This document shows, one piece after another, positions 14,127 through 32,958 of a stretch of 32,958 nucleotides of DNA; within the stretch, counting starts at the first letter, position 1; the number at the start of each line of letters is the position of its first letter. The stretch is from assembly GCA_017528425.1 (NCBI GenBank), contig JAFXOV010000017.1, forward strand, positions 1-32,958. The letters are read 5' to 3'. The stretch comes from Elusimicrobiota bacterium. GTDB lineage: Bacteria > Elusimicrobiota > Endomicrobiia > Endomicrobiales > Endomicrobiaceae. The position numbers and the translations under genes were made by a program. Below the pieces are notes generated by a model, which did no database searches, was not told the DNA's origin, and saw nothing but the letters and a program-made list of their open reading frames with translations.

Positions 14127-14153
14127 AAAAGCTCCCGGTTATCGGGAGCTTTT
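14127..14153. terminator. Bidirectional rho-independent terminator
   Basis: GCTCCCG (14131-14137) pairs with CGGGAGC (14143-14149) over a 5-base loop. AAAA precedes and TTTTATTTTTT follows, so it can end the plus-strand rpsO-pnp-accB operon and also the convergent minus-strand lnt-glycosyltransferase transcript. Confidence 0.92.
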
Positions 14154-15516
14154 ATTTTTTATGTTCTTTACTATTTGTTTTATATGCAGATTTTAATATA
14201 AAAAATTTATTCCTTATAATATTCGCTTGTTTGGAATATCCGTAAATGCTATAGTAGTCCGCCAAGAAAAATGCAACTTTTAATATCTTATCTCTGTTTT
14301 TAAAATCTTCCATATATTCGTTACTTATTGTATTTATTGCAGAATCGTCATCATATGCAAATTTCATAGCATTATTCACACATATTGAATTAATAATTAT
14401 GAAGATTATTAAAAACATTGTACAAACTTTTGTTTTTATTTTTTTTAAATCATTTTTACAAAACTCATCAATCATATATAAAAGAGATATTATGATGCAT
14501 GCCATAGGAAAATACATCCTGTTACCTTGAAAAGCAATCCTTTTGGCTAAAAGTGTCGGCAAAAAAAACAATATTGCAAACAAAATATAAAACAACATCA
14601 ATTTCTTTTCTTTAGACTTCATTATCACTACAAAGAAAAATATCATTACACTAAGACCTTTTAAAATTGTTAAAAAATTGTAGGCGGGAACTATTTTAGG
14701 TTTTGACAAATAAAAAGGTGCCGATAAATAATCACAAATCATGTAAAGGGTATCTTTATTAAACAAACCCATAAATTGTTTTATAAAATTAACATCGTTA
14801 CTGTACATCAAAAAATATGCAAAATATATTATGACATAAAACAAATAACTAAATTTTATTTTGTACCCTTTAATATATGCAAAAATCAAACAAACAAAAG
14901 GTAAAACAACTGCCGTTTCCTTTGATAAAACAGCAGCAAAGAATAATATAAAATGGATAAGAAGAAAAAATATTTTTCTTGAGTTGTTATCAGTTTCATT
15001 TGCTTTTATAAAAAATATAAACGAAGAAAAAGCAAACAAAAAAAGTAACAAATCACATCTTCCGCAAAGCCATACCGCACTCCAAACGGAAAATATATTT
15101 ATGGAAAAGAAAAGTGCGCCAAGTAAAGCTAAATATATTTTAAAGTTACAATGATTTACCAAAAAACAAAAAAATATAAGTACACACAACAGATGAAGTA
15201 ACAGGCTTGTGATATGATTAATTTTTACATTAACTTTTCCTAAAGATATTTTACTATCGACATAAAAAGATAAAATAAAAACAGGTCTGTATAAATATTT
15301 TATTTTGTCAAAATATACGGATGTAGTAAAAATTTTTTTTACTATGCCTTCATTTTGGAATTGCTCGTAATATTGCGAAGAGAACAAAAGGTCTTCCACC
15401 ATAACGGTTTTATAATTAACGGCTTTATAAAAAATTATTGCGGAAATTGATATTAAAATAAGTATCGAGATAAAAATTGATAATTTGGTTTTTGATATAA
15501 AAAGTTTTTTAAACAT
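14152..15516 (-). CDS. Multi-spanning GT-C superfamily glycosyltransferase-like protein
   Basis: A 454-residue membrane protein with about ten hydrophobic segments. It shows the pattern of PMT/TMTC-type (GT-C) enzymes: an acidic pair after the first membrane helix (Glu41-Asp42), YLYRPVFILSFYVD (75-87), NHITSLLLHLL (100-110), SVWSAVWLCGRCDLL (143-157), and LSKETAVVLP (197-206). Family members transfer sugars from polyprenyl-phosphate donors on the outer face of the membrane; donor and acceptor here are unknown. The start overlaps the lnt stop by 8 bases (ATGTTTAA), so the two are co-translated. The last residues fall in the terminator stem region. Tetratricopeptide repeats, common in TMTC proteins, are absent or not recognisable. 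Confidence 0.75.
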   Translation of the reverse strand: MFKKLFISKTKLSIFISILILISISAIIFYKAVNYKTVMVEDLLFSSQYYEQFQNEGIVKKIFTTSVYFDKIKYLYRPVFILSFYVDSKISLGKVNVKINHITSLLLHLLCVLIFFCFLVNHCNFKIYLALLGALFFSINIFSVWSAVWLCGRCDLLLFLFAFSSFIFFIKANETDNNSRKIFFLLIHFILFFAAVLSKETAVVLPFVCLIFAYIKGYKIKFSYLFYVIIYFAYFLMYSNDVNFIKQFMGLFNKDTLYMICDYLSAPFYLSKPKIVPAYNFLTILKGLSVMIFFFVVIMKSKEKKLMLFYILFAILFFLPTLLAKRIAFQGNRMYFPMACIIISLLYMIDEFCKNDLKKIKTKVCTMFLIIFIIINSICVNNAMKFAYDDDSAINTISNEYMEDFKNRDKILKVAFFLADYYSIYGYSKQANIIRNKFFILKSAYKTNSKEHKK

Positions 15517-17041
15517 TTTTTCTTTTTCTAAATATTCCGTAAATCAGCAATATTATCACAGCATATGCCATACACAAATACACAAACAAATCTCCGATTT
15601 TATCATATATTGTTATGTAATTATTTGTATAAACCGTTTCTTCTAAAACTATTTGTTCTTGGTTTTTTGTTTGTCTTACAATTTTACCCGTTGGCGCAAT
15701 CACTCCAGATATTCCGGTATTTGAAGCAACAATAAGATACTTTCTGTTTTCTATTGCTCTAAAAATATTTAGAACAAAATGTTGATACGGATACGAAAGG
15801 CCGTCACACCAAGCATCATTTGAATGTGTGGTTAATAAATTTGCTCCTTTCAAAACTAATTCTCTCGATAAGTAAGGATAATAATTTTCCGAACAGATAT
15901 TTATACCCAAACTACATTTATCCAATGTAAAAGCTTTTAGTTCTATTTCTTTTGTTAAATTGTTATCCGTAATAAATTTAGAGAACATTTTCGCTAACAG
16001 TCCTTCAAAAGGAACATATTCTCCAAACAATATCAGATGTTTTTTTCTGTAACTATCTATCACTTCTCCAACGTTAGATACAACAAAGATTGAATTATAT
16101 ACTTTATAATTTTCCACATCAAAACCGCCAATCAATGTATAATTCGACCAAGGAGAGATATTATTTACAAAATTTTTAACATCTTGATTTTCTTTTATAT
16201 TCTTCGGCAAAACCGTTTCCGGATACAATACGATATCTAAATTTTTATTTTCGAGGCTTATTCCTGCTTGTTTTAAATCATATAAAATCTTTTTCACATA
16301 ACGTTTTTTAAACTTATATTTTTGTTCAATGTTAGGTTGAACAATGCCGATTTTAATCTCTTTTTCATTGTTTATTTGAGATATTTGATTTATTCTTATA
16401 TAACCGTAAACAAACATAGAACAAACAACGAATATTACAATTAACAAATATTTTTTTTCTCTGTTACATATCCAACAAAACAATAACACATTTATCAACA
16501 TTATTATAAATGAAATTCCGAATACTCCGAAGATGTCGGCAAATTGTATTACTTGTGTAACGGAACTCTGTGAATATCCTAAAAGATTTATAGGAAAGCT
16601 ACCGAAATAGTAATTTCTTATATATTCTAATGACACCCAAAGAGCCGGTGCAAAAAGAATCAATGTAATTTTATTTTTTTTCTTTATAAAATTTATGCCT
16701 ATCCCCCAAACGACAAAATATAACGATAAACATATCCACACAATCATTGAAATAGTACAAGAATCGGAAAATGAACTCGTATTTTTTAACAAAAACAAAT
16801 ACATCCAATTAAATGCTATTATCGAATACATTATTCCCGTAATGAAGCTATATAAAGCTGAAAACTTTAAATCGTTTTTATATATACAATATATCAACGG
16901 AACAAATGCTATCCAGGCCAGAAAAAAGAAATTGAATTTTTGAAATGACAATGCAAGCAATATTCCCGATATTATCGAGAATATTAAATATTTCAATTTG
17001 TATTCTTCAATTATGAATTTATTTACTATATTTTTTATCAT
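15509..17041 (-). CDS. lnt: Apolipoprotein N-acyltransferase
   Basis: A 510-residue Lnt with about six N-terminal membrane helices, a carbon-nitrogen hydrolase domain (about 228-480) and a C-terminal helix. The catalytic triad is Glu275 (LYPETVLP), Lys333 (YRKKHLILFGEYVPFE) and Cys383 (NICSENYYP). Also typical are SNDAWCDGLSYPYQH and RAIENRKYLIVASNTGISG. It N-acylates the lipid-modified cysteine of lipoproteins on the outer face of the inner membrane, which indicates a diderm cell. It begins 28 bases past the giant-gene terminator with no clear Shine-Dalgarno; its promoter is not obvious. Confidence 0.95.
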   Translation of the reverse strand: MIKNIVNKFIIEEYKLKYLIFSIISGILLALSFQKFNFFFLAWIAFVPLIYCIYKNDLKFSALYSFITGIMYSIIAFNWMYLFLLKNTSSFSDSCTISMIVWICLSLYFVVWGIGINFIKKKNKITLILFAPALWVSLEYIRNYYFGSFPINLLGYSQSSVTQVIQFADIFGVFGISFIIMLINVLLFCWICNREKKYLLIVIFVVCSMFVYGYIRINQISQINNEKEIKIGIVQPNIEQKYKFKKRYVKKILYDLKQAGISLENKNLDIVLYPETVLPKNIKENQDVKNFVNNISPWSNYTLIGGFDVENYKVYNSIFVVSNVGEVIDSYRKKHLILFGEYVPFEGLLAKMFSKFITDNNLTKEIELKAFTLDKCSLGINICSENYYPYLSRELVLKGANLLTTHSNDAWCDGLSYPYQHFVLNIFRAIENRKYLIVASNTGISGVIAPTGKIVRQTKNQEQIVLEETVYTNNYITIYDKIGDLFVYLCMAYAVIILLIYGIFRKRKNV

Positions 17042-17067: not shown

Positions 17068-17100
17068 AAAAAGGCAGATGATTTTTTCATCTGCCTTTTT
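17068..17100 (-). terminator. Rho-independent terminator after the giant gene
   Basis: AAAAAGGCAGATGA (17068-17081) pairs with TCATCTGCCTTTTT (17087-17100) over a 5-base loop, 14 bp. On the minus strand the stem ends in a run of six T. It lies 20 bases after the giant-gene stop and separates that gene from lnt. Confidence 0.92.
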
Positions 17101-17120: not shown

Positions 17121-20100
17121 TTATGCCGCCGCAGCTACCGCATGGATATTTCTCAAGTTGAAGTTCATCATCGGTGTCATATATTTCTTATCTGCTCCGG
17201 CCAACAATTCCATTACATCTTCTATCTTTGCATCTTTTGCAAATTTCAAGTTCTTATCTACTATCGTACTCTGTAACTTCTTAACATCTATTACAAAATC
17301 TCCGTCCTTTGCATCTGATACCGATGTCTTTACACCCTGTTCAAACATATTAACTATCACATTTTGATTTACTGCTTTACTTACTATCAATTTTGCCATT
17401 ATTTCTTCATCACTTGCTGTCTTCAACCAATCAGCATCTTGTCTACCTGTTGTTATCAACAAGTCTCTCAATGTAGTTACTAATTCTATTTCCACTTTCA
17501 CTTCAGCTTCACTTAACTTACCTTCTTTTCCTAATGCTATTGCCTCTGTTATCTTTCTCGTTGCATTTTGTATTATCTTTTCTTTGTTGCCTAAATCTCC
17601 TTCATCCAATTCTATATATTTTAACATCGCTGTTGCATCTTTATTCCATATTGATAATACATACTTCAATGCTTTATTCAATTCTCCCGGTGCAGTTACT
17701 CCGTCTATTATATTCGCTAACATCTCTTTACCGGCTCCATATCTGTTCATTTTCTTTCCTTTGAACATATCTTCTATTACTTCTTTTACTCCGCTGTCCA
17801 AATATCTTACACCCTTTTGTCCTTTCTGTGTCAACATCAAGCCGGTGAATCCTTTTTCTTTAAAGAATTCATCTATCGATATTGTTTCTTCTATTTTCTT
17901 ACCGTTTGCATCAGTACCTGTGTAGGTTAAATATCCTCCGGCTATTTCTGTTATGGTTATAACATGGCCCGTATCTTTTCCGGCATTTTCTTTATATGCT
18001 ATGAATGCTGACGGTACAACTACTCCGGACAAACCTTCTTCTTCAAATGTTCCTATCTTCTTCTCTCCGGATATTTCTTCTCCTTCCGGTGTTGTTATTG
18101 TGTATGTTACCACTCTATCTTTCATGTCTTTTCCCTTAACAGCTTTAATACCTGTTATTGTTAATACTTCTCCGGTTTCCGGTATATAAACTGTAACAGG
18201 CGCTTTCTTAACTTCTCTCGGATTAAGTTTTCTTAAATCAATATCTTGTTCGGATAATGTAGCATATCTTAATCCTGTTCTCTGTCTTAACTCGCCTAAT
18301 TCTGTTCCTTCCAATGTATCTTCTACTCCTGCTGCTTTCAATTTATCCTGTGCATACGGCGTTGCTCTTAATGCTGATTCCGTTAATGCTCTCAACGGTA
18401 TTATCTTGCCCATTGTCTCTACCGCTACATCTACACAATCTTCTACATCTGCTTTTTCCTCTGCTTGTGATACTACCGGTGTTTCTGTTACTTTTTGTTC
18501 CGGTGTTTTTGCTTCAGCAACTGTAGCCTTCTGCTCTGCTTTAGGTTCTTCTTTTACTATCTCTACTTTCGCAGCATCTTCTATGTTTAATTTACCTGTA
18601 CCGGCTACTTTTTCTATTGCTCTATATACATCCGCACTGCTTGCTTCCAATACTTCTACGCTTACTCCTTTTATTCCTTCTTTAAATCTTGCCTTTCTGC
18701 TTAAGGTATTGTAATTTGTTATAAATGATTTATATCCTTCGTCTCTTAATATTCCTCTTCTCTTTGCAGTCGTCTGTGTTACATTTACTTTACCGCCTTT
18801 TCCTAATACTTGTGTTGCTTTCATAAATTCTTCCGCAGTCATATTCTCATAATATCTTCTCGTCTTATCGTAATATTTATGCATATCAGTTTTATCCAAT
18901 ATATCAGCGATTTTCTTCTCAGCTACACCTTCTCCGAGTATATCTTTCAAACTCATTTCTCCAACTATGTATCCTCTTAATACTTGTTCTTCGCCTTCAC
19001 TTGTAAGTTCTCTTATTCTTCTATCTATTCTTCCTTTGTCTTTCCCGTATTTTGCTCTATCTTCTTCGCTTAATCCTAAGTATTTTTCTACAGTAACGTC
19101 CTGATAACCCTTTCTTTCCACTTTTATATCTACTCTGTTTGCTAATACTTTAACATCTTTTGCTCTGTCTATTTCACCGATTGTCACAGCATCTTTTGCT
19201 AATTCTTCCGGTGTATTAACCTTTGATCTTAATACACTTATTTTCTTTTCTATTGCCTTTCTGTTCATTCCGAGATATTCGTACAATTTATCTTTGTTCT
19301 CTTGACTCATTCCTTCAGTTAAGGATTCGAATTCATTCAATGTCATTCCTTTTATTGCATCCGTTATGGTCTTTACTCCTTTTGCATTTCTTATTATTTC
19401 CGTTATTTTTGCGGAATCCATATTAAGATTATTTTTCAGGAATTTTACCTCTTCTACTATATTAGAATTATCTATTATTGTCTTTATTGCTATATCCTTG
19501 GTATCAATTCCTTGTTTTGCTAATTCTTTAGAGATATCATCATATATTTTATATCCATATAAATGATCTCCTTTAAATAATTCGTTAACTATTCCGACTA
19601 CATTTCTTCTTATCGCATCTTTATCTTCCCCTTCTTTTGCTTCTCTTTCTGCTATTCTCTCTACATCAGCCATTGTCGCTGTTTTTGCAAAATTTGTTAA
19701 TCTTGTTCTCATTACATTCTCATCTTTTAATAACGAATTTATGTTAATTAATTCAGATATCTTCATTTCGCTTATTATTGCTCTTTCAGCATCACTTGTA
19801 TATTTTTCTTCCAACGTGGTAACATTATCAAACACATTTTCCAAACCAAATGCTCTCATAGCTGAATAATATTGAGTTCCTAATATGTTTCTTACATCAC
19901 CTATCGATTTTTCTTTTATCGTTGATACTAAGTCTTTACCTCTTATAACATCATCAACAGTAATTAAATCGCTACCTATCAAAGCTTCCATACCTGCAAC
20001 ATATTTAGGATCTGACAATTGTGCTAATGTCGCACTTCCTGCAAAATTATTCAATGCAGCAGCAAGTTGTTTTAATACTTCCTCATTAAATTCTTTTATT

Positions 20101-23100
20101 CCCATTGCTCTGTCTGCCATATTTTCGGCAATTGCAGCTTCAATATCGCTTAATCTTCCCGATTTAGTTTGTTCTCTTAACTTATCATAAGCCTCTACAA
20201 CATTGTCGTAATCCAATCCTATAAATTTGAAAAATTCTCTTGTCTCTTTCAAATTCAATTTCGCGGCAACATCTGTTTCCGTATAATCCGTATATGTCAT
20301 TCCCTCAAATTGTTTCTTTAATGTCACTGTGTAATCTTCTCCCATAATATCTTTTTGGAAGTAAACACTTGATAAATCAACCATACTGGCTTCGTATTTA
20401 AATTCTATCTTATCTCCAAATTCTCTTACAACTTCCGATCTTGACATCCAGAATGCTATAGCACCATCGTTCATTTGTATTTGGCCCGCATCTAATCCTG
20501 CCCATGTTAATAACGGACTTATATCCGAAATTTCAACACCTGCATTTCTCAACTGTTCATTTGTCAATTTTCTTATAGCTTTTATCAAATCTTCTCTTGT
20601 TGTATTTGTATCAGCATCTATCTTTATCAAGCCTTTTTGTACTACCATTAAATCCAATGCTGTTCCAAGCGAGGTGCTATTTAATTCTTCCAATGTAAAC
20701 GATCCGGCCAATTGTTCTGCTTGTTCATCTGTTAATCCTTGTCTCTTTAAGAATCTTACCACATAGGCATAATTCGAAGCTACATTATCGGCTTTATTCT
20801 CTTTTCTGCTGTAGTTTATACCTGCATTAGCCAAAGCTTTTCTTTCCGGACTGTTAAGATTCTTTCTCAATTCTTTCAATTCATCATATGTAAGTTTTCC
20901 TAATAATTTTCCATATTCTTCTTCGAAGTTTCCGTTTGCTATGTTACCATCAAAAAGAGTATCATTTGCCAACATATCTACCGTAATAGAATCAAGCACT
21001 CCAAATTCACTGTTATCTCTAACATATTGATATCTTGCCAACAATGTGTCAGCGGAAACATCCGGTCTGATAATAGCAAACAAGCTTCTTAATCTTTCTT
21101 CGGATGCTCTATCTATTTCTTCTTGTGTAGGTATTGTCGTAGCGGAATAATTAGGTATATCCGTATTTGCCAATTTAACAACATCATTGACGGTTACATT
21201 CTTTTTACCTCTTAAGCCTTCCAATAATGTTTTCTGATCATCAGATAAACTCAATGCCGGAGATTTAAATAAAGTAACTATCGATTCCAAAATCGTTACC
21301 GGTAAGAAAAGCATATTCGTTGCCATTGTTACTATCGGATTCACTTGTTCTCCTTTGATTATTTGAGCCATCTGTTGTTTGTCTTTCATCGAACTTAATA
21401 CAGGTATCTTGGCTCTTTGAGTTGTAGACAAATACTCGGTTAATCCAACCATATCACCATTGCCTAAATACTGTAAAACTCTGCTTCTATCCGTTTTTGC
21501 CCAATCAACATTAAAGTTTTCATTTGAACGTAAATTTTCCAATGTTTGTGCAACAGAATTATTACCAAATACCAACTTTCCGGAAGATATTTGAGAATTC
21601 AATATATCCAATACAATAGGTATGTCCTGTTCCGCAATATTTCCGTTCATATAATCTTCAAATAATTTTTGTTTCATTTCATTTAAAGTTTTTTCCGCTT
21701 CCGTTACTTTAGAGTTAGCTCTATTAGCTTCAATTCTCATTGTAAATTTCTCAAATGCTCTTATTATCGGGTTAGTGGATAAACTTTCCATTCTATCTTG
21801 CTGTTGTTGTTGAATATCCGTTCTGTTCTGTATCGCATTTTGCAAAGCTGCAGTTTGGTCATTAAACATAGCCAATACGACAGGAACATTCTGTCCATCA
21901 AGATTTCCGTTCATATAATCATTAAACAATTTTTGTTTAATACCTGCCAAATCTTTCTCCGCTCTTGCTACTTGAGAATCTGCTCTTCTGCTTTCAACAC
22001 CCATTGCCCAATTTTCAAAAGCTCTTACTATCGGGTTAGCAGATAAATTTTCAGCCCTTTCCTGATGTTGTTGTTGAACATTATCTCTATGTTGTACCGC
22101 CTGGTGTAAAGCAGTTGTTTTCGCACTAATTTCAGGAACTGTAAATTGCGGCATTACACCCGTAACACCGGTGTGGCTATATGTTGATAATGCATTTCTT
22201 ACACTTGCAATATCAACTCCAGCATCCGTTGCCGCTCCTCTTTGTACCACTGGCATTACTGAAATAATATCGTTTAACGTATTTCCGTTTGATTGGTTAG
22301 TTGTTAATAAATTTACATCTCTGCTTTGTAATCTGACAACATTATTTATTGCAGAAATAACAGCATCTTTATTTACAACCGTAGGAACATCTTTAACATC
22401 GTTACCCAAAATAGCATTTATGGTTGCAACAGAAGATTTCCCTGCAGGATATCCGGTTTGTGTATATCCCAACATTTGCAAAGCATAACCTACAGAAACA
22501 GAACCTCTTTCTGTCAATTCATAACCATTATGCAAACCTTGAGTCTGCAATGCTCTTACCACTTCAGATCTTTCCGAAGAATTTAATCCCATTCTCGACA
22601 ATGATGCCTCTAAATCCGCTGTCGAGCGAACATAAGGTCTGTCTGCTTGAGAAGCCGCACCTTTTGCATTGTAATTAAGTGCTCCGCTTTGTGCAACAAC
22701 TCTATCTTCGGCTTCCCTACCGCTATAATCACTGCCATAAACTCTGGCATTAATCAAATCTAAATATTGATTATTTGTAACTTGAGAAGGAATACTCTCT
22801 TTCAAAACAGCTTTTTCTTTATCGGCATAATATGTATTGATTGTTGAAATATCGGATTCGAAATATACATTAATATTCTTTATAATTCTACCATCAGTTG
22901 TAACTTGTGCTTGATCACTGAAACGAGTACCCAATACTCTACCTACCAATTGCTCAACCGCTGATTTATAACTGAGATGAGCATCAACAGCATATAAATT
23001 AACATGTGTATTTTTATCTACACCTTCAACGTTTTCAATGTGTATATCAACACCTCTACCTAATTGCTCATATGTTCCAATAAAGCATTTGTATTGTCCG

Positions 23101-26100
23101 GCTTTGTTATCTGCATATATTAAACCCATTTCTTTTGACATTCCGGCATCGAACCATGCAACCTTACCCATAGCCTGACCTGTTTCATCTACTGAACAAT
23201 CTCTGTCACTAAGAACACCCAATAACTTTGTATAATCTTTAAATAAGTCTATTTTAGCTTGATTATTCAAAGCCATTATTGTGATATCACCATTTAGAAT
23301 TGATACTATAGCTTTTTCAAATGCGCCGAATGATGTTTGTGCCGGTTGAGAAATATGTAATGCAACAACCTTATCACCTTTATCAACATAACTCGTTACA
23401 TCGGTAAGTTTTACAGATGTTGCAGGAGTATAATAATTTGCATCAAATCCCATTGCTTGTTGTGCCGAAGCAGAATATGTACCTGTTAAACCTATAAAAC
23501 CACTGGCTTCTCTTATTGCTTGTATTATTGCAATGGAACTGTGTTCTCTGTCTCCTATACCGGTCATACCGCCAATGCTTTCCGGCGTTACTCCCTTTAC
23601 CATTCCGTTTAATATTTCCGCTTCAACAATCTGTTTATAACCTACACCCGGAACCAAATCTATAAGGGCACCGTTACATATAAGCATAACTTTATAAGAA
23701 CCATCCTCCGCTTTGCCTATACCATAATCTACACCATATGTCCAAGTTAATTTAGACATAAGAACATTATTTAAAACTTCTTGTAATGAATAACCTGAAC
23801 CAAACAAATCATTCTTATTTCCTACTCCGCTTATCTCTTTAACAAATTCTTCTAAGATTTGTTCATATTGAGATTTATAAACTTCACTGTAACTATCATT
23901 TGATAATAAAACTTTCGTTCTCTCATTAATACTCATTTCCAAAGCAACTTTAACCAAGCCCAACATTTCTGCGGAAGCAGAGCCTTCAGCAACAACAACT
24001 CTGCCATCTACAATAGTAAAGCCTTCCAAGATTGACTTTATCTTTATTCCCGTAGAGCTATCTGCACCTACTTTAGCCAATAAGCTTTCCAAATCTGTTC
24101 TTATATCCGTAATATCTTTTTCTGTTAGAGTGTTGTTTTTAAATCTATCTAATTTCTCCAACATTGATTTGTAAACTGCATCGCCTTTTAATACTCCTTG
24201 CATTTGTTCAACAGCTTTTTGCAGATATTGACCACTACCGTCTTTATCTGTTAATGCAGTGAAGAATTTATACATATCGGAATCTTTAGATTCAAATCCC
24301 GAAGAAGAACTGGACATAACCTTAGATAAATATACCGCCATATCCGCTTCATCACCCAAAATCAATCCGACTTTACCTTTTAATGGAGAATTTGCATCAA
24401 GCATAGCAAATCCAAAGTCCGTATATGTCATAAATAAAGCGGTCTTTGTAGTCAAATTGGATGTAATGTTATCTTTATCTGCTTTTAACATCTCATACTT
24501 ATTACCATACAATCCGCCTACTCTCTTTAACAAATTATTAACGTTGGTATCTATATCGGCACAAATAATAGTGAATTCCCCTTGAATGTCGTTAACAAGT
24601 TTCAATGAAGGGAATAAAACAGCAACAACAGATGTTTTTCCGGCTCCGGTTCCAAAGACATTAATTTCTTGTATTTTTGTCAAAACTTCTTTCATGTCTT
24701 CACTGGATATTGCAGCATTGTTTCTAAATGCTCTCAGAATAGTATTGTTGAATATACCATTTATACCTTCATACAATTCCTTTGAGAAGCCATAGCCGCC
24801 ACTAAGACAATTTCCTATTTGCATTTCCAAACAGGAATTAAATAATGCTACCATTTGTTCTTCCGTTGCAGACACTTTTCCATCTTTGGCAGCACTTATA
24901 CCTTTTGCAGGATCGTATACTTTTTGGTCTTCACCGAAGAAATTTTGATATACTTTTGTCAAATCTGCAGTGGCAGATATTCCGCTTTCTCCATATCCGT
25001 ATATACTTGCATGAGCCAAATCGAATTTCATGGTAGCCAAAGTTTGAATATCAAACGATATTTTAACTCCCGTACCTAAATCCAGTTTAGTTTCCAAAAC
25101 ATCCTTACCTTTAAATTGTTTTGCAGCTTCGCCGTCTTTCATCAAATTATCTTGAATATTCTGAGTAAATTCGGCCATCTTTGTATTATATTCCTGCATA
25201 ACATTTTTAAATGAATCCGATGCTAAAGTTTTTAACAATGCAACATCTGTCCAATCTAAGAAATGAGTTAAACCTATTCTTAAACTTCCTTTAGCTTCAC
25301 TTATTTTCGAAAGCAAATATAAACTTTCACTATCATGATAAGCCTTCTTTTGTTCTGCACTAAGATTATTCCAACTATCACGTATTTGATCATGTGTTGT
25401 TTCTATAGCACTCTTTGCTTTTTCTAATGCTTCTTGCTGTTGCTTACATTCAAGAGTTTCAACAAAGTCTTTTACATTTTCATGATTCTTGGATATTTCC
25501 GTCAAAGCATCTATAAATACACCGGCATAAAGAGCATCTTCCGCATATAATTTATCCAATGCACTTAATATCTTCATTCCTGTTTCTAAACCTGCATCGG
25601 TCTTAGCAAACTCATCAAATAATCCGGAATAAGTTAATTCTCTTCCATTAATATTGAAAGTTCCGGTTTTAGCTTGTTCTATCATAGCTTTTGTTGCTGA
25701 AGCAAAATTAGAAATAACAGCATCTTTAACACTAACTTGTTCACCGTTTTCAATAACAAATCCATAGTTACTGTTACTATCACTTAAAATATCGTATAAC
25801 AACGATGGATTGGATCCTATAACTTTCAGTGCTGTGAGTTGATAATGTGCTAATACTTCTCCTTCAAGTTTGGTACCTTTTTCTCTTTCTCCGGCTCCAT
25901 AGTTGTATACTATTTCTTTAAATAAATTTTTCAAGAGTTCGGGCTGGCCACATGCAGCACTTGCTCTAATTGCTGCACCCAACAACATATCTACTTCCAA
26001 AGCATTTTTATTTCTGAAATAATCTTGATTTTCAAGTATCTTTTTGGCTGTTTCGGAATAAGTACCGCCTTTTGTTTCTTTTTTGAGTTTAGACATATCT

Positions 26101-29100
26101 CTTTCAGTCGACCAACTTGTAGCTCTCATAGCCGAAGGAACGAACAACATAGCGGCAGATCCAAATACATATTCAAAGAGACCTTGTTCTTCTTCTCCTT
26201 TTTGGAACGAACTCAATCCTAAGTTTTCTAACATGCCATAGAAGGCAGAATCAGCCAACATATCATCCAAGTTTTTACCTAATCCGCCAAACAATTTTTC
26301 TGCTACTGAATATTGCAACATATTTATAGGTTTGGTTATCATTGACATAATAGCACCACCTGTAAAGCTCATCCATTTACCGCCAAGAACCAAACTTGGT
26401 AATGCCGTTATACCACCCTCACCCCAAACTGTAAATACTTTAGATAAAAGGCTTGCTTCTTCATATGTGGCTGCTTTAAATATTGCTGCTCCCGGAATTG
26501 CCATACCGAAGAAGTGGCTTTGGAAGAAACCTGTTCCAAATGAACTCTTAACAGCTGCCCATCCGTTTTGATCATCCAAATCACCGAATAACATTAAATT
26601 ATATTTGTCACCTATACTGCTAAATTGTTTTCCCCAACTATTCCAGAAATCACCGTAATCAAATGCTTCATAACCTTCATTACCTGCATTCAACCAATTG
26701 TTAATTTTTCCTGTAATAGGAGCAACTATAGCATTTAATATAGGTGACAATACATTAAATCTCATCAAATCTATACCGGATGTTATACCTTTTTGTAAAA
26801 CACTCGCAGGATTGTATACCACTTCTCCTATTGTTCCCCAAATATTTCTTGTTGACCAATTATATCCGAGTTGAGGATTTATCACTCCTATAGTAAATCC
26901 TGCAACAAATCCTATACCAAACTCAACAGCTAATCCCTTTAAGTCAATACCTTCAAATATTTCTCTGCCATTCATAAAGTTCTGAGCTATTGTTCCCATT
27001 AAATTCATTAACGGTATAGCAACACCAACCGATAAACCTGTAAACAAAGCATTTGTTACACGATTTCCGCCAACAAGACCGGCAGTAACATTTGCTTTAC
27101 CTCTTTCAAATAAAGTTTTTGCATCTACTTTAGAAGGCGGCGCTGCATTTCTTGCTTTTAATGCACCATTATATTGAGATATAGGATTTATAATACCTAC
27201 AGAAACAAGTATTAATAAATCTGATGCTGCAGCTCTTAAATCACCTTCAACAAAAAGATTATGTACAAAAGATTGTGAAGTTTTTACTAATATTACCGAA
27301 TCCAATACGGTATTCATTGCAAATCTTGTAACAAGGCCTGCTTTTCCGAGGAATCCGCTTGCAGTGTTGAAACCCACACCTAAAGTTTTAGCCCCGAAAT
27401 ATGTAGAGAAGCCTATAAGAGCTCCCGATAAAGCACCTACACCTATTCCTTCCAAAACATTACCACCGTTGACTCCGGCTATAATTCCACCGGCAGTAGC
27501 TCCTACGACAGCTCCTCCAAAGGTATATTTCATTGCAGTTTTAAAAGTTGCTTTCAGCGTCTCTTTCAGTGCACCATCAAGTAATAAGCTGGCACCCATT
27601 TTACCTACGGAAGTGCCAATCATATATGCGGAGAATAAATCTATACCTAAACCTAATAAGTTCGAACCGAAATCATCATAGTTGCCTGTTTCAAAACATC
27701 TTGCAATACCGGCACCGTGTTCAAATGCCGCCGGAGCTACAAATATCGCAGCAGCAACACCCGCAGCGGTACCTACTGCTACCATAGCCAATAAAGAAGC
27801 TTCTACCGCCAAACTTGCACCTAATGTACATATTGCAGCTACAACACTAACCGCAATCACCGCAGCTACGGCAAGAGCACCGCCTACTATTTCCCAAGCT
27901 GTTTTCTGATAATATTTACTATCTATATTACCGGTTGCATCTACTTTTGCATCTTCTGTTACTCTTCTGCCACCAACTATAGAATCTTTTTTCCAAGTAC
28001 TTCCTTCTCTTGTAAATGTATCTTTTGAAAAATCCTGAGCCATTGTGGAAGTACTCCAACCGGTTATGGTTCCTTCGAATGTCGTAGATTTTCCATCTTC
28101 AGCTTCCGTCAATTTACCATCAAACAATGCTGAAGATTTTCCTGCAAGGAAATTCTTATCGGCATTAGGATCCTTTTCATCTAAAACACTACCCTTCATT
28201 GTACCATCTACATCTGATTTTCCTGATAGTACGTTCAAGCCATATCCGCCGCCATTTTTATCCTGATTCAATTGGATAACGCTTCCTGCACCAATATTAT
28301 CTATATTAAATACATCATCACCGTTTTGATAAGTAATAGGCTTACCATCTGCACCTCTCAATGACACAGTGTCTGCCAGCACAAAATGTCCGGCCTCATC
28401 ACCGCCAAAAGTTGCACCGTCCAATTCAATAATTTCGCCGTTAGGACCTGTAGTATATACTTTTTCATTTGTAGAAAGAGTTACACCGTTTCTATGCAAT
28501 ATTGTTCCCAATGATATTCTGTCACCGACAACAACATCTGTTGCCAACTCTACATCTTTGCTTGGCTTAAAGTTAGGATCGAGATTCGTTGCTTCTATTC
28601 TTCCTGCATCTGCATTACCGACTAAACCGGAAACTTTGAAGTTCTCTATATACTGTCCGCTTTCAAGTTTTTCCGAGAATAAGTCTATTGTATCAATATC
28701 ACTTGTTGTTATTTTTGCTATACCGGAAGCATCATTGAGGTTTGCAATACCATTATCTGTTTTAAATCTAATACCGAAACCAACCTCGTCATTATTTGCA
28801 TCATGAATATTATTCATAACAGCAAGATAATCCAGAGGATTTACATTAAATTTCATACCGGCAAGATATTCACCGGCATTAGGTAAAATCTTACCGCCGG
28901 AATCAATTATACTGTCAAAACGTAAACCTGTACCATCAGTATAATTAGGAGCAATATAATTTCTTACATAATTCGTAGCGGATTGTTCATCTGCGAAAGA
29001 AGCTTCAAAATTATTGGTTACTTCGAGCTGACCATTGTGAACAGTCATATATCCGGAATCAAAATTTATTGTCGAGGCTCCGGAAGAGTCCGAGAGGTTA

Positions 29101-32100
29101 GAGCCGTTTGCATATATTGTCATGCTGCCCCAATATTTTGCTCCTTCTGCATATATCTCTGCTCCACCTGTTTCCATATCTATAGTTACTTTGGTTCCTT
29201 TTCCTCTGGCTACATAAGTTGTAACATCCTCATCCATCACAATACCAAAATTATATACTTTGGTTTGAACAGTATTATCTGACTTATCGCCGCCGCTACT
29301 ACCTTCGGATTTATTAGGTATTTGTTGAGTAATATAAGAGGTATCATCTGTTAAATATATATTTTGAGCGACAGATCTATCTATTGCGAAGACATTTTTC
29401 CCGCCGCCTGAAAAATCAGTAAGGCCAAGTTCGTAAATAACTTCCATAGCGGGATCATCTGTTTGATTGAAATCTTTATCAACATTTCTATATGTTCCTT
29501 TTATACCAAAAACATTATCAGGACCTATTACCGTATAAACGCCATCATTTCTAATTCCTAATGTATATATTCCGGAAGGAACATCGGCATCGTCACTTAA
29601 TAACAAAGTATACTTATCTGTTATTACGGTACATTCCGAATTCATCTTCCAATTATCACCGAGACCGGCATCCAAAGCATTGTTAACCGCATTTTCCAAT
29701 TTAGTTCTTGCATCGGACAAGCCTGCCCTATCTATACCGTTTACCGCCCATCTTGTACCATCATATGCCTCACAATAGTAGTCAACTGCACTTATGAGTG
29801 ACGAGAAAATTTCCGATTCATACGAAGTCATAGTCTCGCCGTACAAGTTATTGATAAGTGCTGTTATTTCTATTTTCTTATCACCTTCATCACCAATTCC
29901 ATATTTATATTGTAAAAATTCAACATAGTTAATTTTTATGGAAGGATTCCCTGCATGGTAAACCATGTATGCCATATTGGAAGCGCCATATCTGTCCATA
30001 TACATTTCAGTAATTTGAACTTGACCCATATATGCATCATGATCTTTATCATCGGGATCGAGTGCTTTTTGAATATTTAAGTTAGCTAATGTTTGTAAAG
30101 GTCCATATCCGGAATTCAACATATTTGCACAATTCGAAGCATAGAAGTTTTTCATATCTTCTGTTTCTTGAGAGTAATCTATACCGATTTCATCTTCGCA
30201 ATATATTTTGAATATAGCACTTATATAATATGCATCGATATCAGACATTTCAACATCACTACCGTTATACATGTAATACCATACTTTTTCCGCCATTGCT
30301 CTGTCTTCCGCGGAAACTTCAGGAACTTCATACGAAGGATTGTTTTGTTGAGGCATCAAGTCAACCATAGCTTCTAAGAATGTTCCGTCTTTTATATCTT
30401 CCATTGTAAAGACTCTTGTTGTTCCATCCGCTTTTGTTAATACTAAAGATTCGCCATCTTTACCTACAGAAAGGCTATTATCTCCAATCTGACCATTTAC
30501 AGAGTTAGCTAAATCTCCTAGTTGTCCTCTACAATATGTATTTTCCCAATTTGCTATATTACCGGTTTCGGACAATTCAACGATAGTCTTACCGTCAGGG
30601 CCCAATACCTTTGCACCGGATACATTATGCATTTCGTTTCCAACTACGTTTACACCTTGTATCCATACTCCGGTTCCTTCATCATATGCAGCATATGCAT
30701 TAGGATCTGAATTTATAGCACTCGCACTGAAATCTGCTCCACCAAATGTCTTAGTTTCTTTGTCAAACGTTAATCCTTTAGTTGTTCTTACAATCGCACC
30801 TGTCTCAGAATTTTCTCCATATGCAGTTACATCTTTTAAGTATCCGTCAGAATCATATTTTAAACCATCTGTCCAATCATCAAGAGCAAATCCGCCTTTC
30901 AATGTACCTGTGTATCTTATATCATCTTCTGTTGTTATATCAAAGCTTGAACCGTCGATAGTAAAGATTTCTCCACTATCATTCATTGTTATTCCTGTTA
31001 TCCATGCACCATTCGAAGCTAAAGCTGCATAATCTTTACCATTATTTTTGATTGCATCCGCACTGAAATCTGCTCCGCCAAATGTTTTAGTATCTTTATC
31101 AAAAGTCAACCCTACGCTTGTTCTGATTTTTCCGGTCTTATCGTATGCCGTCACATTTATTAGATTATCATTTTCGTCACGATATAATCCGTTCCATCCG
31201 TTTATATCATAACCGGCTTTCAAACTTCCAGTATATGTTGTTCCATCATCGGCACGCATAGTAAATGTACTACCTTCGGCAGTTTCAACGTATCTTGTTC
31301 TTCCTCCATCTATAGTTCTTATTCTTACATTTTTTATCCAAGCTCCGTTTTCTGCCTGAGCTTCGTATTTCCCAATATTTCTGTTAATAGCACCATCACT
31401 GAAATCCGCTCCGCTGAATTCTCCGTCTTTAAAGTATAAGCCATCACTTGTTCTAAACATTGCTCCCGTAGTTGTATTTTCACCGTATGCAGTTACTCCC
31501 TTCAATAATCCGGTTGTTCTGTCTTCGTATTGTAAGCCATATGTCCAATTATTAAGAGAATAATGTCCTTTCAATTCTCCCGTATATCTTATTCCATCTA
31601 CAGTTATATCAAATGTTGCTTTACCATTGAGAGATACATAACCGCTATCACTTACATTGATTCCGTTTATCCATGCTCCATTGCTTGCCAATCCGTAATA
31701 TTTGTCATTGTTTGTATCTATAGCGTCTGTACTAAAATCAGCTTTACCAAATTCCAAACTCTCTCCTTCTCCGGCAACAAGTGCTACTCTGTTTTTGTAT
31801 CTATCAGTCTCAGCTCTTGTAAATGTCGCACCCTCACCCTTTAATACGGATGGTATCGCTGTATCAGCATCTAATGTTCCTAAGTATGTATCTCCTGCAC
31901 TATCTTTTACTCTTACCGCTGCCCCTTTGGCTCCGTTTACTGTATATTCGTGACCTCTTGTCCCGTCTCCTGTTATTCTTACTCCGCCTACATAATTACC
32001 TTGGTTATCAGTATAGAAATATTTAGGTGTATACGGTTCCGCATCTTTTGCTAATGATGCTTCTAATGCATCTGCATCAGCATTGATTGTATCTATATCA

Positions 32101-32958
32101 AAATAATCCGTTCCGAATGTTAAAGATTCTCCTTCTTCTGCATTTGTATATACCGGCGTTCCGAATCTTGTTGTATATGCCGTTGTGAATACAGTATTTG
32201 TTCTATTGTTCAATATATCACTTATTAATGTATCTTCACTTACAGATCCCATGAATACATCATCGGCTCCGCTCTTTAATTGTACCGAGGCTCCTTTTGC
32301 TCCGTATACTTTGTAAGGATTATCGTTCGAGCCGTCTCCTTCTATCTTTATTCCGCCAACGTAGTTTCCATCTTTATCACTATAGAAGTATTTAGCCGTA
32401 TATGGCTTTTCTTCCGTTGCCGCACTTACTTTTGCTGCATCATCATTGATTTTATCTACACCAAAATAATCCGTTCCGAATGTTAAACTTTCTCCTTCTT
32501 CCGCACTCGTATATACAGGTGTTCCGTATCTTGTTGTATATGCTGTTGTTAATACCGTATTTGTTCTATTGTTCAATATATCACTTATTAATGTATCTTC
32601 GCTTACCGATCCCATAAATACATCATAATCTCCGCTCTTTAATTGTACCGAGGCTCCTTTTGCTCCGTATACTTTGTAAGGATTATCGTTCGAGCCGTCT
32701 CCTTCTATCTTTACTCCGCCTACATAATTTCCTTTACTGTCATTGTAGAAGTATTTTGCCGTGTACGGAGTTTCTTCCGTTGCCGCACTTACTTTTGCCG
32801 CATCTGCATTGATTGCATCTACATCAAAATAATCCTTTCCGAACGTTAAGCTTTCTCCTTCTTCCGCACTCGTATATACAGGTGTTCCGAATCTCGTTGT
32901 ATATACCGTAGTAAATACCGAGTTGGTTTGTTTGCTCAATATATCACTTATTAAAGTA
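17121..32958 (-). CDS. Giant (>5,270 aa) repeat protein with an internal SecA-like ATPase, 5' partial
   Basis: One stop-free frame covers 15.8 kb and stays open at the window edge. The first possible start, a TTG at 32939, is really the leucine of a repeat (TLISDI-L), so the true N-terminus lies beyond the window. Numbering from that leucine: 121-residue repeats (1-365); related 112-residue repeats (366-about 810); uncharacterised mixed region (about 810-1676); hydrophobic glycine-rich region (about 1677-2270); helical region; SecA-like motor (about 2740-3385); 88-residue duplication (3608-3783); helical array (about 3980-4780); Pro/Glu/Lys linker (about 4789-4837); C-terminal domain ending NIHAVAAAA. 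The gene stands alone before a terminator. Any signal peptide is out of view. No known family covers the whole protein that I can name. Function unknown; roles in export, at the cell surface or in cell contact are only hypotheses. Confidence 0.93.
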   Translation of the reverse strand, partial: TLISDILSKQTNSVFTTVYTTRFGTPVYTSAEEGESLTFGKDYFDVDAINADAAKVSAATEETPYTAKYFYNDSKGNYVGGVKIEGDGSNDNPYKVYGAKGASVQLKSGDYDVFMGSVSEDTLISDILNNRTNTVLTTAYTTRYGTPVYTSAEEGESLTFGTDYFGVDKINDDAAKVSAATEEKPYTAKYFYSDKDGNYVGGIKIEGDGSNDNPYKVYGAKGASVQLKSGADDVFMGSVSEDTLISDILNNRTNTVFTTAYTTRFGTPVYTNAEEGESLTFGTDYFDIDTINADADALEASLAKDAEPYTPKYFYTDNQGNYVGGVRITGDGTRGHEYTVNGAKGAAVRVKDSAGDTYLGTLDADTAIPSVLKGEGATFTRAETDRYKNRVALVAGEGESLEFGKADFSTDAIDTNNDKYYGLASNGAWINGINVSDSGYVSLNGKATFDITVDGIRYTGELKGHYSLNNWTYGLQYEDRTTGLLKGVTAYGENTTTGAMFRTSDGLYFKDGEFSGADFSDGAINRNIGKYEAQAENGAWIKNVRIRTIDGGRTRYVETAEGSTFTMRADDGTTYTGSLKAGYDINGWNGLYRDENDNLINVTAYDKTGKIRTSVGLTFDKDTKTFGGADFSADAIKNNGKDYAALASNGAWITGITMNDSGEIFTIDGSSFDITTEDDIRYTGTLKGGFALDDWTDGLKYDSDGYLKDVTAYGENSETGAIVRTTKGLTFDKETKTFGGADFSASAINSDPNAYAAYDEGTGVWIQGVNVVGNEMHNVSGAKVLGPDGKTIVELSETGNIANWENTYCRGQLGDLANSVNGQIGDNSLSVGKDGESLVLTKADGTTRVFTMEDIKDGTFLEAMVDLMPQQNNPSYEVPEVSAEDRAMAEKVWYYMYNGSDVEMSDIDAYYISAIFKIYCEDEIGIDYSQETEDMKNFYASNCANMLNSGYGPLQTLANLNIQKALDPDDKDHDAYMGQVQITEMYMDRYGASNMAYMVYHAGNPSIKINYVEFLQYKYGIGDEGDKKIEITALINNLYGETMTSYESEIFSSLISAVDYYCEAYDGTRWAVNGIDRAGLSDARTKLENAVNNALDAGLGDNWKMNSECTVITDKYTLLLSDDADVPSGIYTLGIRNDGVYTVIGPDNVFGIKGTYRNVDKDFNQTDDPAMEVIYELGLTDFSGGGKNVFAIDRSVAQNIYLTDDTSYITQQIPNKSEGSSGGDKSDNTVQTKVYNFGIVMDEDVTTYVARGKGTKVTIDMETGGAEIYAEGAKYWGSMTIYANGSNLSDSSGASTINFDSGYMTVHNGQLEVTNNFEASFADEQSATNYVRNYIAPNYTDGTGLRFDSIIDSGGKILPNAGEYLAGMKFNVNPLDYLAVMNNIHDANNDEVGFGIRFKTDNGIANLNDASGIAKITTSDIDTIDLFSEKLESGQYIENFKVSGLVGNADAGRIEATNLDPNFKPSKDVELATDVVVGDRISLGTILHRNGVTLSTNEKVYTTGPNGEIIELDGATFGGDEAGHFVLADTVSLRGADGKPITYQNGDDVFNIDNIGAGSVIQLNQDKNGGGYGLNVLSGKSDVDGTMKGSVLDEKDPNADKNFLAGKSSALFDGKLTEAEDGKSTTFEGTITGWSTSTMAQDFSKDTFTREGSTWKKDSIVGGRRVTEDAKVDATGNIDSKYYQKTAWEIVGGALAVAAVIAVSVVAAICTLGASLAVEASLLAMVAVGTAAGVAAAIFVAPAAFEHGAGIARCFETGNYDDFGSNLLGLGIDLFSAYMIGTSVGKMGASLLLDGALKETLKATFKTAMKYTFGGAVVGATAGGIIAGVNGGNVLEGIGVGALSGALIGFSTYFGAKTLGVGFNTASGFLGKAGLVTRFAMNTVLDSVILVKTSQSFVHNLFVEGDLRAAASDLLILVSVGIINPISQYNGALKARNAAPPSKVDAKTLFERGKANVTAGLVGGNRVTNALFTGLSVGVAIPLMNLMGTIAQNFMNGREIFEGIDLKGLAVEFGIGFVAGFTIGVINPQLGYNWSTRNIWGTIGEVVYNPASVLQKGITSGIDLMRFNVLSPILNAIVAPITGKINNWLNAGNEGYEAFDYGDFWNSWGKQFSSIGDKYNLMLFGDLDDQNGWAAVKSSFGTGFFQSHFFGMAIPGAAIFKAATYEEASLLSKVFTVWGEGGITALPSLVLGGKWMSFTGGAIMSMITKPINMLQYSVAEKLFGGLGKNLDDMLADSAFYGMLENLGLSSFQKGEEEQGLFEYVFGSAAMLFVPSAMRATSWSTERDMSKLKKETKGGTYSETAKKILENQDYFRNKNALEVDMLLGAAIRASAACGQPELLKNLFKEIVYNYGAGEREKGTKLEGEVLAHYQLTALKVIGSNPSLLYDILSDSNSNYGFVIENGEQVSVKDAVISNFASATKAMIEQAKTGTFNINGRELTYSGLFDEFAKTDAGLETGMKILSALDKLYAEDALYAGVFIDALTEISKNHENVKDFVETLECKQQQEALEKAKSAIETTHDQIRDSWNNLSAEQKKAYHDSESLYLLSKISEAKGSLRIGLTHFLDWTDVALLKTLASDSFKNVMQEYNTKMAEFTQNIQDNLMKDGEAAKQFKGKDVLETKLDLGTGVKISFDIQTLATMKFDLAHASIYGYGESGISATADLTKVYQNFFGEDQKVYDPAKGISAAKDGKVSATEEQMVALFNSCLEMQIGNCLSGGYGFSKELYEGINGIFNNTILRAFRNNAAISSEDMKEVLTKIQEINVFGTGAGKTSVVAVLFPSLKLVNDIQGEFTIICADIDTNVNNLLKRVGGLYGNKYEMLKADKDNITSNLTTKTALFMTYTDFGFAMLDANSPLKGKVGLILGDEADMAVYLSKVMSSSSSGFESKDSDMYKFFTALTDKDGSGQYLQKAVEQMQGVLKGDAVYKSMLEKLDRFKNNTLTEKDITDIRTDLESLLAKVGADSSTGIKIKSILEGFTIVDGRVVVAEGSASAEMLGLVKVALEMSINERTKVLLSNDSYSEVYKSQYEQILEEFVKEISGVGNKNDLFGSGYSLQEVLNNVLMSKLTWTYGVDYGIGKAEDGSYKVMLICNGALIDLVPGVGYKQIVEAEILNGMVKGVTPESIGGMTGIGDREHSSIAIIQAIREASGFIGLTGTYSASAQQAMGFDANYYTPATSVKLTDVTSYVDKGDKVVALHISQPAQTSFGAFEKAIVSILNGDITIMALNNQAKIDLFKDYTKLLGVLSDRDCSVDETGQAMGKVAWFDAGMSKEMGLIYADNKAGQYKCFIGTYEQLGRGVDIHIENVEGVDKNTHVNLYAVDAHLSYKSAVEQLVGRVLGTRFSDQAQVTTDGRIIKNINVYFESDISTINTYYADKEKAVLKESIPSQVTNNQYLDLINARVYGSDYSGREAEDRVVAQSGALNYNAKGAASQADRPYVRSTADLEASLSRMGLNSSERSEVVRALQTQGLHNGYELTERGSVSVGYALQMLGYTQTGYPAGKSSVATINAILGNDVKDVPTVVNKDAVISAINNVVRLQSRDVNLLTTNQSNGNTLNDIISVMPVVQRGAATDAGVDIASVRNALSTYSHTGVTGVMPQFTVPEISAKTTALHQAVQHRDNVQQQHQERAENLSANPIVRAFENWAMGVESRRADSQVARAEKDLAGIKQKLFNDYMNGNLDGQNVPVVLAMFNDQTAALQNAIQNRTDIQQQQQDRMESLSTNPIIRAFEKFTMRIEANRANSKVTEAEKTLNEMKQKLFEDYMNGNIAEQDIPIVLDILNSQISSGKLVFGNNSVAQTLENLRSNENFNVDWAKTDRSRVLQYLGNGDMVGLTEYLSTTQRAKIPVLSSMKDKQQMAQIIKGEQVNPIVTMATNMLFLPVTILESIVTLFKSPALSLSDDQKTLLEGLRGKKNVTVNDVVKLANTDIPNYSATTIPTQEEIDRASEERLRSLFAIIRPDVSADTLLARYQYVRDNSEFGVLDSITVDMLANDTLFDGNIANGNFEEEYGKLLGKLTYDELKELRKNLNSPERKALANAGINYSRKENKADNVASNYAYVVRFLKRQGLTDEQAEQLAGSFTLEELNSTSLGTALDLMVVQKGLIKIDADTNTTREDLIKAIRKLTNEQLRNAGVEISDISPLLTWAGLDAGQIQMNDGAIAFWMSRSEVVREFGDKIEFKYEASMVDLSSVYFQKDIMGEDYTVTLKKQFEGMTYTDYTETDVAAKLNLKETREFFKFIGLDYDNVVEAYDKLREQTKSGRLSDIEAAIAENMADRAMGIKEFNEEVLKQLAAALNNFAGSATLAQLSDPKYVAGMEALIGSDLITVDDVIRGKDLVSTIKEKSIGDVRNILGTQYYSAMRAFGLENVFDNVTTLEEKYTSDAERAIISEMKISELININSLLKDENVMRTRLTNFAKTATMADVERIAEREAKEGEDKDAIRRNVVGIVNELFKGDHLYGYKIYDDISKELAKQGIDTKDIAIKTIIDNSNIVEEVKFLKNNLNMDSAKITEIIRNAKGVKTITDAIKGMTLNEFESLTEGMSQENKDKLYEYLGMNRKAIEKKISVLRSKVNTPEELAKDAVTIGEIDRAKDVKVLANRVDIKVERKGYQDVTVEKYLGLSEEDRAKYGKDKGRIDRRIRELTSEGEEQVLRGYIVGEMSLKDILGEGVAEKKIADILDKTDMHKYYDKTRRYYENMTAEEFMKATQVLGKGGKVNVTQTTAKRRGILRDEGYKSFITNYNTLSRKARFKEGIKGVSVEVLEASSADVYRAIEKVAGTGKLNIEDAAKVEIVKEEPKAEQKATVAEAKTPEQKVTETPVVSQAEEKADVEDCVDVAVETMGKIIPLRALTESALRATPYAQDKLKAAGVEDTLEGTELGELRQRTGLRYATLSEQDIDLRKLNPREVKKAPVTVYIPETGEVLTITGIKAVKGKDMKDRVVTYTITTPEGEEISGEKKIGTFEEEGLSGVVVPSAFIAYKENAGKDTGHVITITEIAGGYLTYTGTDANGKKIEETISIDEFFKEKGFTGLMLTQKGQKGVRYLDSGVKEVIEDMFKGKKMNRYGAGKEMLANIIDGVTAPGELNKALKYVLSIWNKDATAMLKYIELDEGDLGNKEKIIQNATRKITEAIALGKEGKLSEAEVKVEIELVTTLRDLLITTGRQDADWLKTASDEEIMAKLIVSKAVNQNVIVNMFEQGVKTSVSDAKDGDFVIDVKKLQSTIVDKNLKFAKDAKIEDVMELLAGADKKYMTPMMNFNLRNIHAVAAAA
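18430..18575 (-). other. Pro/Glu/Lys-rich linker in the giant protein
   Basis: Residues about 4789-4837 are Ala, Pro, Glu and Lys rich (EEPKAEQKATVAEAKTPEQK and on), a likely flexible hinge. It separates the helical array from a C-terminal domain of about 435 residues that begins with a beta-rich part (PVTVYIPETGEVLTITGI) and ends helical. Confidence 0.7.
18600..21002 (-). other. Long helical array of the giant protein with degenerate repeats
   Basis: Residues about 3980-4780 are highly charged and helical, with no hydrophobic segments. A loose unit recurs: hydrophobic, Thr/Ser, x, Asp/Glu, Leu/Phe/Val (LTYDEL, FTLEEL, TREDLI, SIGDV, TMADV, MTLNEF, MTAEEF), usually followed within 20-30 residues by a glycine. 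Units are too divergent for a fixed period by eye. Confidence 0.5.
21591..22118 (-). repeat. Tandem 88-residue Gln-rich duplication in the giant protein
   Basis: Residues 3608-3695 and 3696-3783 are adjacent copies exactly 264 bp long. Both have a Gln-rich start (DNVQQQHQER / TDIQQQQQDR), NPIVRAFE / NPIIRAFE, KQKLFxDYMNGN and a hydrophobic end. They look alpha-helical, possibly coiled coil. Confidence 0.92.
22785..24722 (-). other. SecA-like DEAD ATPase domain inside the giant protein
   Basis: Residues about 2740-3385 follow the SecA motor motif order. Walker A is GTGAGKT (2763-2769, Lys2768). MTYTDFGFAMLDAN matches the SecA block ending in GFDYLRDNM. Walker B is DEAD (2863-2866), where SecA has DEVD. 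A segment like the preprotein-crosslinking domain exit follows (GVGYKQIVEAEILNG). GLTGTY (3150-3155) stands for SecA GMTGTA, GRGVDI (3294-3299) for GRGTDI, and QLVGRVLGTRF (3330-3340) for QLRGRSGRQGD. All ATP-contacting residues appear kept, so activity is plausible. SecA's own C-terminal scaffold and zinc tail are not recognisable. Confidence 0.85.
26130..27911 (-). other. Hydrophobic, glycine-zipper-rich region of the giant protein
   Basis: Residues about 1677-2270 contain repeated long hydrophobic stretches, first near 1681-1737 (IVGGALAVAAVIAVSVVAAI, then GTAAGVAAAIFVAPAA) and then Gly-x-x-x-Gly runs such as GGAVVGATAGGIIAGVNGG and GVGALSGALIGF. Some are long enough to cross a membrane. 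The region separates the beta-type repeats from the ATPase, so it could be a membrane-inserting or membrane-anchoring part. Confidence 0.7.
30510..31844 (-). repeat. Second tandem repeat family, about 112 residues per unit
   Basis: Units are marked by A-D-F-S-x-x-A-I at residues 400, 511, 623 and 735, a period of 111-112. Each goes on with NGAWIxGI, IRYTGxLKG, a Trp-containing block, VTAYGEN and GLxFDKxTKTF. The fourth is degenerate and fades near residue 810. The lead-in GESLEFGKADF resembles GESLTFGKDYF of the 121-residue family, which suggests a common ancestral module. Confidence 0.9.
31845..32958 (-). repeat. Tandem 121-residue (363-bp) repeats in the giant gene
   Basis: Copies start at leucine codons 32939, 32576 and 32213, exactly 363 bp apart for the first two; the third is 123 codons. 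A fourth copy is entering at the window edge (TLISDI). Each has TVxTTxYTTRxGTPVYT, GESLTFGxDYF, NYVGGVKIxGDG and a Gly/Ala-Lys-Gly-Ala segment, beta-rich by appearance. The first two copies share an 84-base exact match (32267-32350 and 32630-32713), so the duplication or gene conversion is recent. Confidence 0.95.

Follow-up and report, generated by a model that had tools for sequence, protein, structure and literature searches.

SecA is normally a stand-alone preprotein translocase of about 800-1,000 amino acids, and many SecA proteins carry a C-terminal zinc-binding tail. In a 2023 preprint by West-Roberts et al., most giant genes are said to encode divergent secA DEAD helicase domains, mainly in Omnitrophota. 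Giant secreted toxins of actinobacteria contain SecA-like ATPases 'predicted to facilitate their secretion' (PMC8195603). Elusimicrobiota are, according to two reports, enriched in giant proteins of more than 5,000 amino acids of unknown function (PMC11573180, PMC12057145), and these giants have no COG assignment in the first of them (PMC11573180).

The window analysed here is a stretch of 32,958 nucleotides that makes up a contig (G000:C26, 1-32958) of a rumen bacterium of the family Endomicrobiaceae (Elusimicrobiota), whose nearest named relative is Ca. Ruminimicrobiellum ovillum (UBA7019). Rumen members of Ruminimicrobiellum are suspected partners of ciliates (PMC11257099). Its minus strand carries a single stop-free frame of 5,278 codons. 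Because the contig stops inside tandem repeats, the 5' end of the frame is open and the N-terminus of the giant protein is missing. The features of the window are the following:

15509..17041, minus strand: neighbouring gene lnt, apolipoprotein N-acyltransferase (Pfam LNT_N 3e-33, CN_hydrolase 9e-26)
17073..17095, no strand assigned: terminator-like inverted repeat GGCAGATGA/TCATCTGCC with a T run, between the giant gene and lnt (read from the sequence; absent from the scanner's list)
17121..32957, minus strand: giant reading frame, of which 5,278 codons are visible and the 5' part is lost where the contig stops (frame retained in G003, see below)
30468..32957, minus strand: aa 1-830, adhesin-like tandem array of presumed beta structure (seven Thr/Gly-rich units, each of ~112-122 residues)
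27888..30467, minus strand: aa 831-1690, middle region common to other giants (BLASTP to G006C35, G036C8 and the genome's own complete paralogue C58)
25968..27887, minus strand: aa 1691-2330, hydrophobic region rich in Gly and Ala (the other giants have a segment of this kind)
27735..27878, minus strand: aa 1694-1741, strongest hydrophobic helical hairpin
22518..25277, minus strand: aa 2561-3480, SecA-related SF2 motor, type A (very probable assignment)
24633..24656, minus strand: aa 2768-2775, Walker A, FGTGAGKT (Gly-Lys invariant in 8 aligned homologues)
24342..24353, minus strand: aa 2869-2872, Walker B / motif II, DEAD
22923..22952, minus strand: aa 3336-3345, motif VI, QLVGRVLGTR
18588..22517, minus strand: aa 3481-4790, post-motor region, largely helical as judged from composition
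17124..18587, minus strand: aa 4791-5278, conserved C-terminal module with a tentative papain/C39-style Cys...His pair
17124..17141, minus strand: C-terminal tail AVAAAA (an end of the A-[VI]-A-x-A-A type, common to the family)

The initial annotation had described tandem beta-type repeats. Seven units, spaced by 121, 121, 122, 112, 112 and 112 residues (DNA period 363 bp), were indeed seen, and their beta nature is presumed; no adhesin or CAZy-type Pfam match was obtained for them. The strongest hydrophobic segments lie at aa 1694-1712 and 1723-1741, with weaker ones as far as aa 2026. Single-protein searches gave no confident Pfam or NCBIfam family for any region of the giant.

A frame of this length might be the product of misassembly or of a chance joining of separate genes, and the contig ends do lie in repeats, with the N-terminus out of sight. 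This explanation is extremely improbable. In another assembly, that of Ca. Ruminimicrobiellum ovillum UBA7019 (G003 = DJWX01000005.1), the frame is preserved over 5,209 codons with a dN/dS of 0.276 (5,154 codon pairs), none of the type-A copies has a stop in the motor region, and in 9 genomes the parts follow one another in the same order. The G003 copy is likewise cut within the repeats, and N-termini are absent from both assemblies. By region, dN/dS relative to G003 was 0.257 in the repeats and 0.216 in aa 831-1690; the motor tract is nearly identical in the two assemblies, so that dN/dS within the motor carries little information. Preservation in a second assembly at this dN/dS shows that the frame is real, far beyond chance, and, to judge from these sequence comparisons, it is under purifying selection and not an artefact. 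The earlier description of one frame of at least 5,278 codons with distinct regions was thus borne out. The same description had put the motor motifs in the middle of the frame, which is true of the visible part; the missing N-terminus would shift the motor towards the C-terminal half.

Identity to G003 varies along the window. From ~28,080 down to ~15,541, a tract that includes the motor, the C-terminus and lnt, it is at least 99% over most of the length; the housekeeping genes of the window are 85-95% identical. For the N-terminal part of the giant the identity is 72-99% down to ~aa 580; at lower residue numbers the ungapped alignment falls out of register. The identity breakpoint is at ~aa 1630, just ahead of the membrane region, and its position at the membrane boundary is, in this one case, compatible with recombination that exchanges modules there.

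The motor has all SF2 motifs. In addition to those listed above, TGT is found at aa 3158 and GRGVDI at aa 3300, and the conserved forms are G[TA]G[AE]GK[TS] or ATGEGKT, DE[AV]D, [TS][GA]T, GRG.[DN] and Q..GR..G.R. In profile-profile comparison the type-A motor profile, built from an eight-member alignment, matched the genomes' own SecA with E=4e-4, and once divergent SecA domains from further giants of the phylum were included the values were 2e-9 (four domains, which themselves had hmmsearch E values of 1e-15 to 4e-6 against the SecA profile) and 1.7e-10 (seven domains). Control alignments of DEAD-box, RecG/Mfd and UvrB proteins from the same genomes gave 0.005-0.012 and aligned little beyond the P-loop region, whereas the alignment with SecA takes in a SecA-specific stretch and motifs III-VI. 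When an AlphaFold2 model of the motor (pLDDT 60) was compared with the PDB by Foldseek, ranks 1-19 were all SecA (best 1.5e-8) and the first non-SecA structure followed at 1.2e-4; since the TM-scores were below 0.25, with no global superposition, this result supports the family of the fold and not a detailed superposition. The SecA-type motor recognised in the initial annotation was thus upheld both by the profiles with their SF2 controls and by the fold search, which did not place the central domain outside the SecA/DEAD group. Taken together, the motif, profile and model data suggest that the domain is very probably a SecA-derived SF2 motor.

Nevertheless, this motor differs from SecA (PF07517) in several respects. 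As in SecA, the SF2 motor bears SecA-type motifs, its motifs II and III are held apart by an insertion at the place of the preprotein cross-linking domain, PPXD (~285 residues separate DEAD, 2869, and TGT, 3158, in a model of pLDDT 60), and beyond the insertion a SecA junction stretch can be aligned. Past motif VI, where SecA has its scaffold and wing domains (HSD/HWD), no clear profile match was found. The window motor gave no Pfam SecA_DEAD match above the curated cut-off, the homologue G006C35 reached 15.2 bits (E=0.008; cut-off 24.6), and Pfam searches with single type-A homologues yielded at most the SF2 family ResIII (1.2e-7 in the best of the four that matched). The motor profile had no match among PDB sequences. 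The CxC...[CH]C motif of the SecA zinc tail does not occur anywhere in the 5,278-codon frame. Because the domain lies inside a giant chain instead of standing alone, stays below the family cut-off and has no zinc tail, we conclude from its sequence that it is not a member of SecA proper. An ordinary stand-alone SecA frame of 897 codons is present on another contig of the same genome (G000:C34), so that the motor of the giant must have another job.

Of 248 Elusimicrobiota genomes, 9 have type-A motors (10 copies in total), and all 9 belong to the Endomicrobiaceae. The C-terminal module is more widespread: it was detected in 30 of the 248 sampled genomes, 29 of them Endomicrobiaceae. On the larger contigs the frames that contain it reach 9,550 codons, and some of its matches in short frames lie at the end of a contig. 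Each of the 19 Endomicrobiaceae giants examined has exactly one P-loop motor. For 18 of them the upstream part is available as well, and there the motor follows the hydrophobic hairpin at a distance of 1,057-1,509 residues. There are at least three groups of motors, giants without type A carrying type B or C at the same place. Types B and C are related to each other (E 4.5e-19). Type B matched the extended SecA profile at 3.5e-8, compared with 0.009 or worse for the controls; type C was not clearly nearer to SecA than to UvrB or DEAD-box proteins, and one type-C giant had a sub-threshold Helicase_C match. The P-loop and motif VI are retained in every type. The genome of the window has one giant for each type, on C26 (A), C58 (B) and C25 (C). 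These observations show that one motor at a fixed place is a constant part of the whole giant family, a feature that is new here. Elsewhere in the order, SecA_DEAD matches above the Pfam cut-off occur in giant frames of 1,505-11,262 codons, and the giant frames L056 (G037:C149), L057, L059 and L065, one of them of 11,262 codons, have SecA-like domains nearer to SecA than the motor of the window.

The start that the window protein lacks is seen in some of its relatives. In four of four giants whose N-terminus is intact, the chain opens with a long signal peptide, and a C39-like domain comes next. The type-B giant (L128/L129, G000:C58:18158-46807) is complete, with 9,550 codons, a signal peptide, a C39 domain that is above the Pfam cut-off and the motor; a tmRNA gene lies just past its 3' end. 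At the other terminus, the C-terminal module of the window protein has a conserved Cys and His and ends in HAVAAAA. In one homologue this module matched Peptidase_C39 at 0.0024, and Foldseek returned no hit for it at or below 0.001; its identification as a C39 peptidase is tentative. A short Ala-rich tail, usually A-[VI]-A-x-A-A, ends all 15 fetched giants with an intact C-terminus, and in the window's genome its exact form is confined to two sites, each at the end of a giant gene. The tail could be a protease, sorting or degradation signal. That it is a copy of the tmRNA tag was considered and set aside, the predicted tag ending in MPIAA, which is only loosely similar.

Downstream of the giant gene lies lnt. 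It was considered as a member of the same system and rejected, because the terminator-like repeat parts the two genes; lnt probably stands outside the system of the giant. Its place beside the giants of G003 and G006 and next to the paralogue on C25 seems to reflect common ancestry in the genus. On G000:C25 (L027:1-16571) the second giant gene is followed by a second copy of lnt, as in the window, and this looks like a duplicated giant-lnt segment, yet the motor is of a different type. Next to the giant gene, none were seen that could serve as partners in a special export pathway. A 454-aa protein with many hydrophobic segments and without a Pfam match is encoded at 14152-15516, and the gene is missing at this place in G003.

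The closest comparison is with the giant genes of West-Roberts et al. As far as their reported content allows a comparison, the window protein shares with them the very long frame, the transmembrane segments and the divergent secA domain by which such genes are recognised, as well as the scarcity of recognisable domains and the host-associated or predatory lineage; the phylum is a different one, and the Endomicrobiaceae family would be set apart by its single motor at a fixed place, its three or more motor groups, the C39-like N-terminal domain and the Ala-rich tail. Domains for attachment or for the breakdown of carbohydrates are a further feature reported for such genes; the window giant has its repeats, for which Pfam returned no adhesin or CAZy-type family. 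The kind of protein was therefore already known, from these divergent-SecA giant genes, from the giants of Elusimicrobiota and from the SecA-like ATPases of actinobacterial toxins. The latter (PMC8195603) resemble the window protein in having a SecA-like ATPase within a giant secreted protein, with a proposed role as a secretion aid, but they carry recognisable toxin and MFS transporter domains, and none were found in the window giant. For the published Elusimicrobiota giants, the passages on them give no motor or fixed architecture, unlike what was seen in the Endomicrobiaceae family (PMC11573180, PMC12057145). The initial annotation could name no described family of this architecture. This held only in part: both giants and SecA-like motors within giants have been published (PMC11573180, PMC12057145, PMC8195603), whereas a literature search, with preprints and most subscription papers outside its scope, found no description of the Endomicrobiaceae family with its one constant motor and Ala-rich tail.

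Taking the signal peptide and the C39-like domain from the paralogues with an intact start, the order of parts in the family is a long Sec signal peptide, a C39-like peptidase domain, adhesin-like repeats, a hydrophobic membrane-inserting region, a SecA-derived ATPase, a helical region and the C-terminal module. We infer the topology, the action in cis and the adhesin role. The N-terminal part would be exported via Sec and displayed beyond the inner membrane, and the hydrophobic region would anchor the chain in the inner membrane. On the side where ATP is available, the motor would be a cis-acting polypeptide pump helping to drive its own long chain, or a bound partner, across. The window giant is probably surface-exposed; the whole reading, a Sec-exported, membrane-anchored and adhesin-like giant surface protein with a motor that carries either this chain or a partner through the membrane, is put forward tentatively, as quite possible though short of probable. 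Its stricter form, a surface protein with self-powered export in which the SecA-derived translocation motor is an obligatory part and one polypeptide is both cargo and pump, is rather doubtful. To our knowledge, the principle of such cargo-plus-pump secretion has not yet been shown in any organism.

The charges before the hairpin speak against a simple stop-transfer. Lys residues precede it, and the positive-inside rule would put its N-terminal side inside, which suggests either that both ends of the hairpin are inside or that it inserts into a foreign membrane. Delivery into a protist host therefore remains a serious rival, even if we consider it a rather unlikely one: the repeats would bind a host or prey (e.g. 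rumen ciliates), the hairpin would enter the target membrane like the translocation domain of a toxin, and the motor and the C-terminal part would reach the target cytosol, where ATP is available. The succession of adhesin, hydrophobic hairpin and enzyme does resemble that of large secreted toxins, the hairpin is Gly/Ala-rich with an uncharged loop, SecA-like helicase-related domains occur among Amoebophilus effectors (PMC3482391), and picked rumen ciliates (Isotricha) yield 16S rRNA genes that fall within Ruminimicrobiellum (PMC11257099). However, the motor and the C-terminus are constant in all giants examined, unlike the swapped payloads of toxins, and the adjoining lnt gene is not immunity-like. 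The constancy of the motor, while repeats and middle region vary, argues for a part of the machine and against a payload or cargo. A polymorphic toxin system was considered separately and rejected, since there is no swapped end (the C-terminal module is conserved) and no immunity gene, lnt lying behind the terminator-like repeat.

The same constancy favours transport of the own chain or of a partner over a descendant of SecA/SF2 that has no part in transport and acts on the anchored giant from the cytosol, as a helicase or unfoldase, for example to control the folding or length of the protein. Such a nucleic-acid or remodelling ATPase is unlikely. It would agree with ResIII being the top Pfam match in some type-A homologues and with the Helicase_C match and ambiguous kinship of type C, but profile and fold both place type A closer to SecA than to each of the SF2 controls, and type B matches the extended SecA profile well ahead of the controls. 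It is very unlikely that the domain is a decayed motor retained as an inactive structural spacer. Divergence among the motor types is indeed very strong, and the domains stay below Pfam cut-offs, but none of the 8 aligned homologues, at 22-48% identity to the window protein, departs from the Walker A Lys, DExD or the Arg of motif VI, and P-loop and motif VI persist in each type.

These results bear on the export of bacterial proteins of 5,000-40,000 residues and on the question why many giant genes contain SecA-like motors. The fixed place of the motor across the family makes the puzzle of its role testable, and a compact family with a constant motor after the membrane region defines a domain of ~900 residues that is open to expression and assay. 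A motor that pumps its own chain would amount to a new way of secreting proteins, and a delivered one to an unusual effector from bacteria that live with protists.
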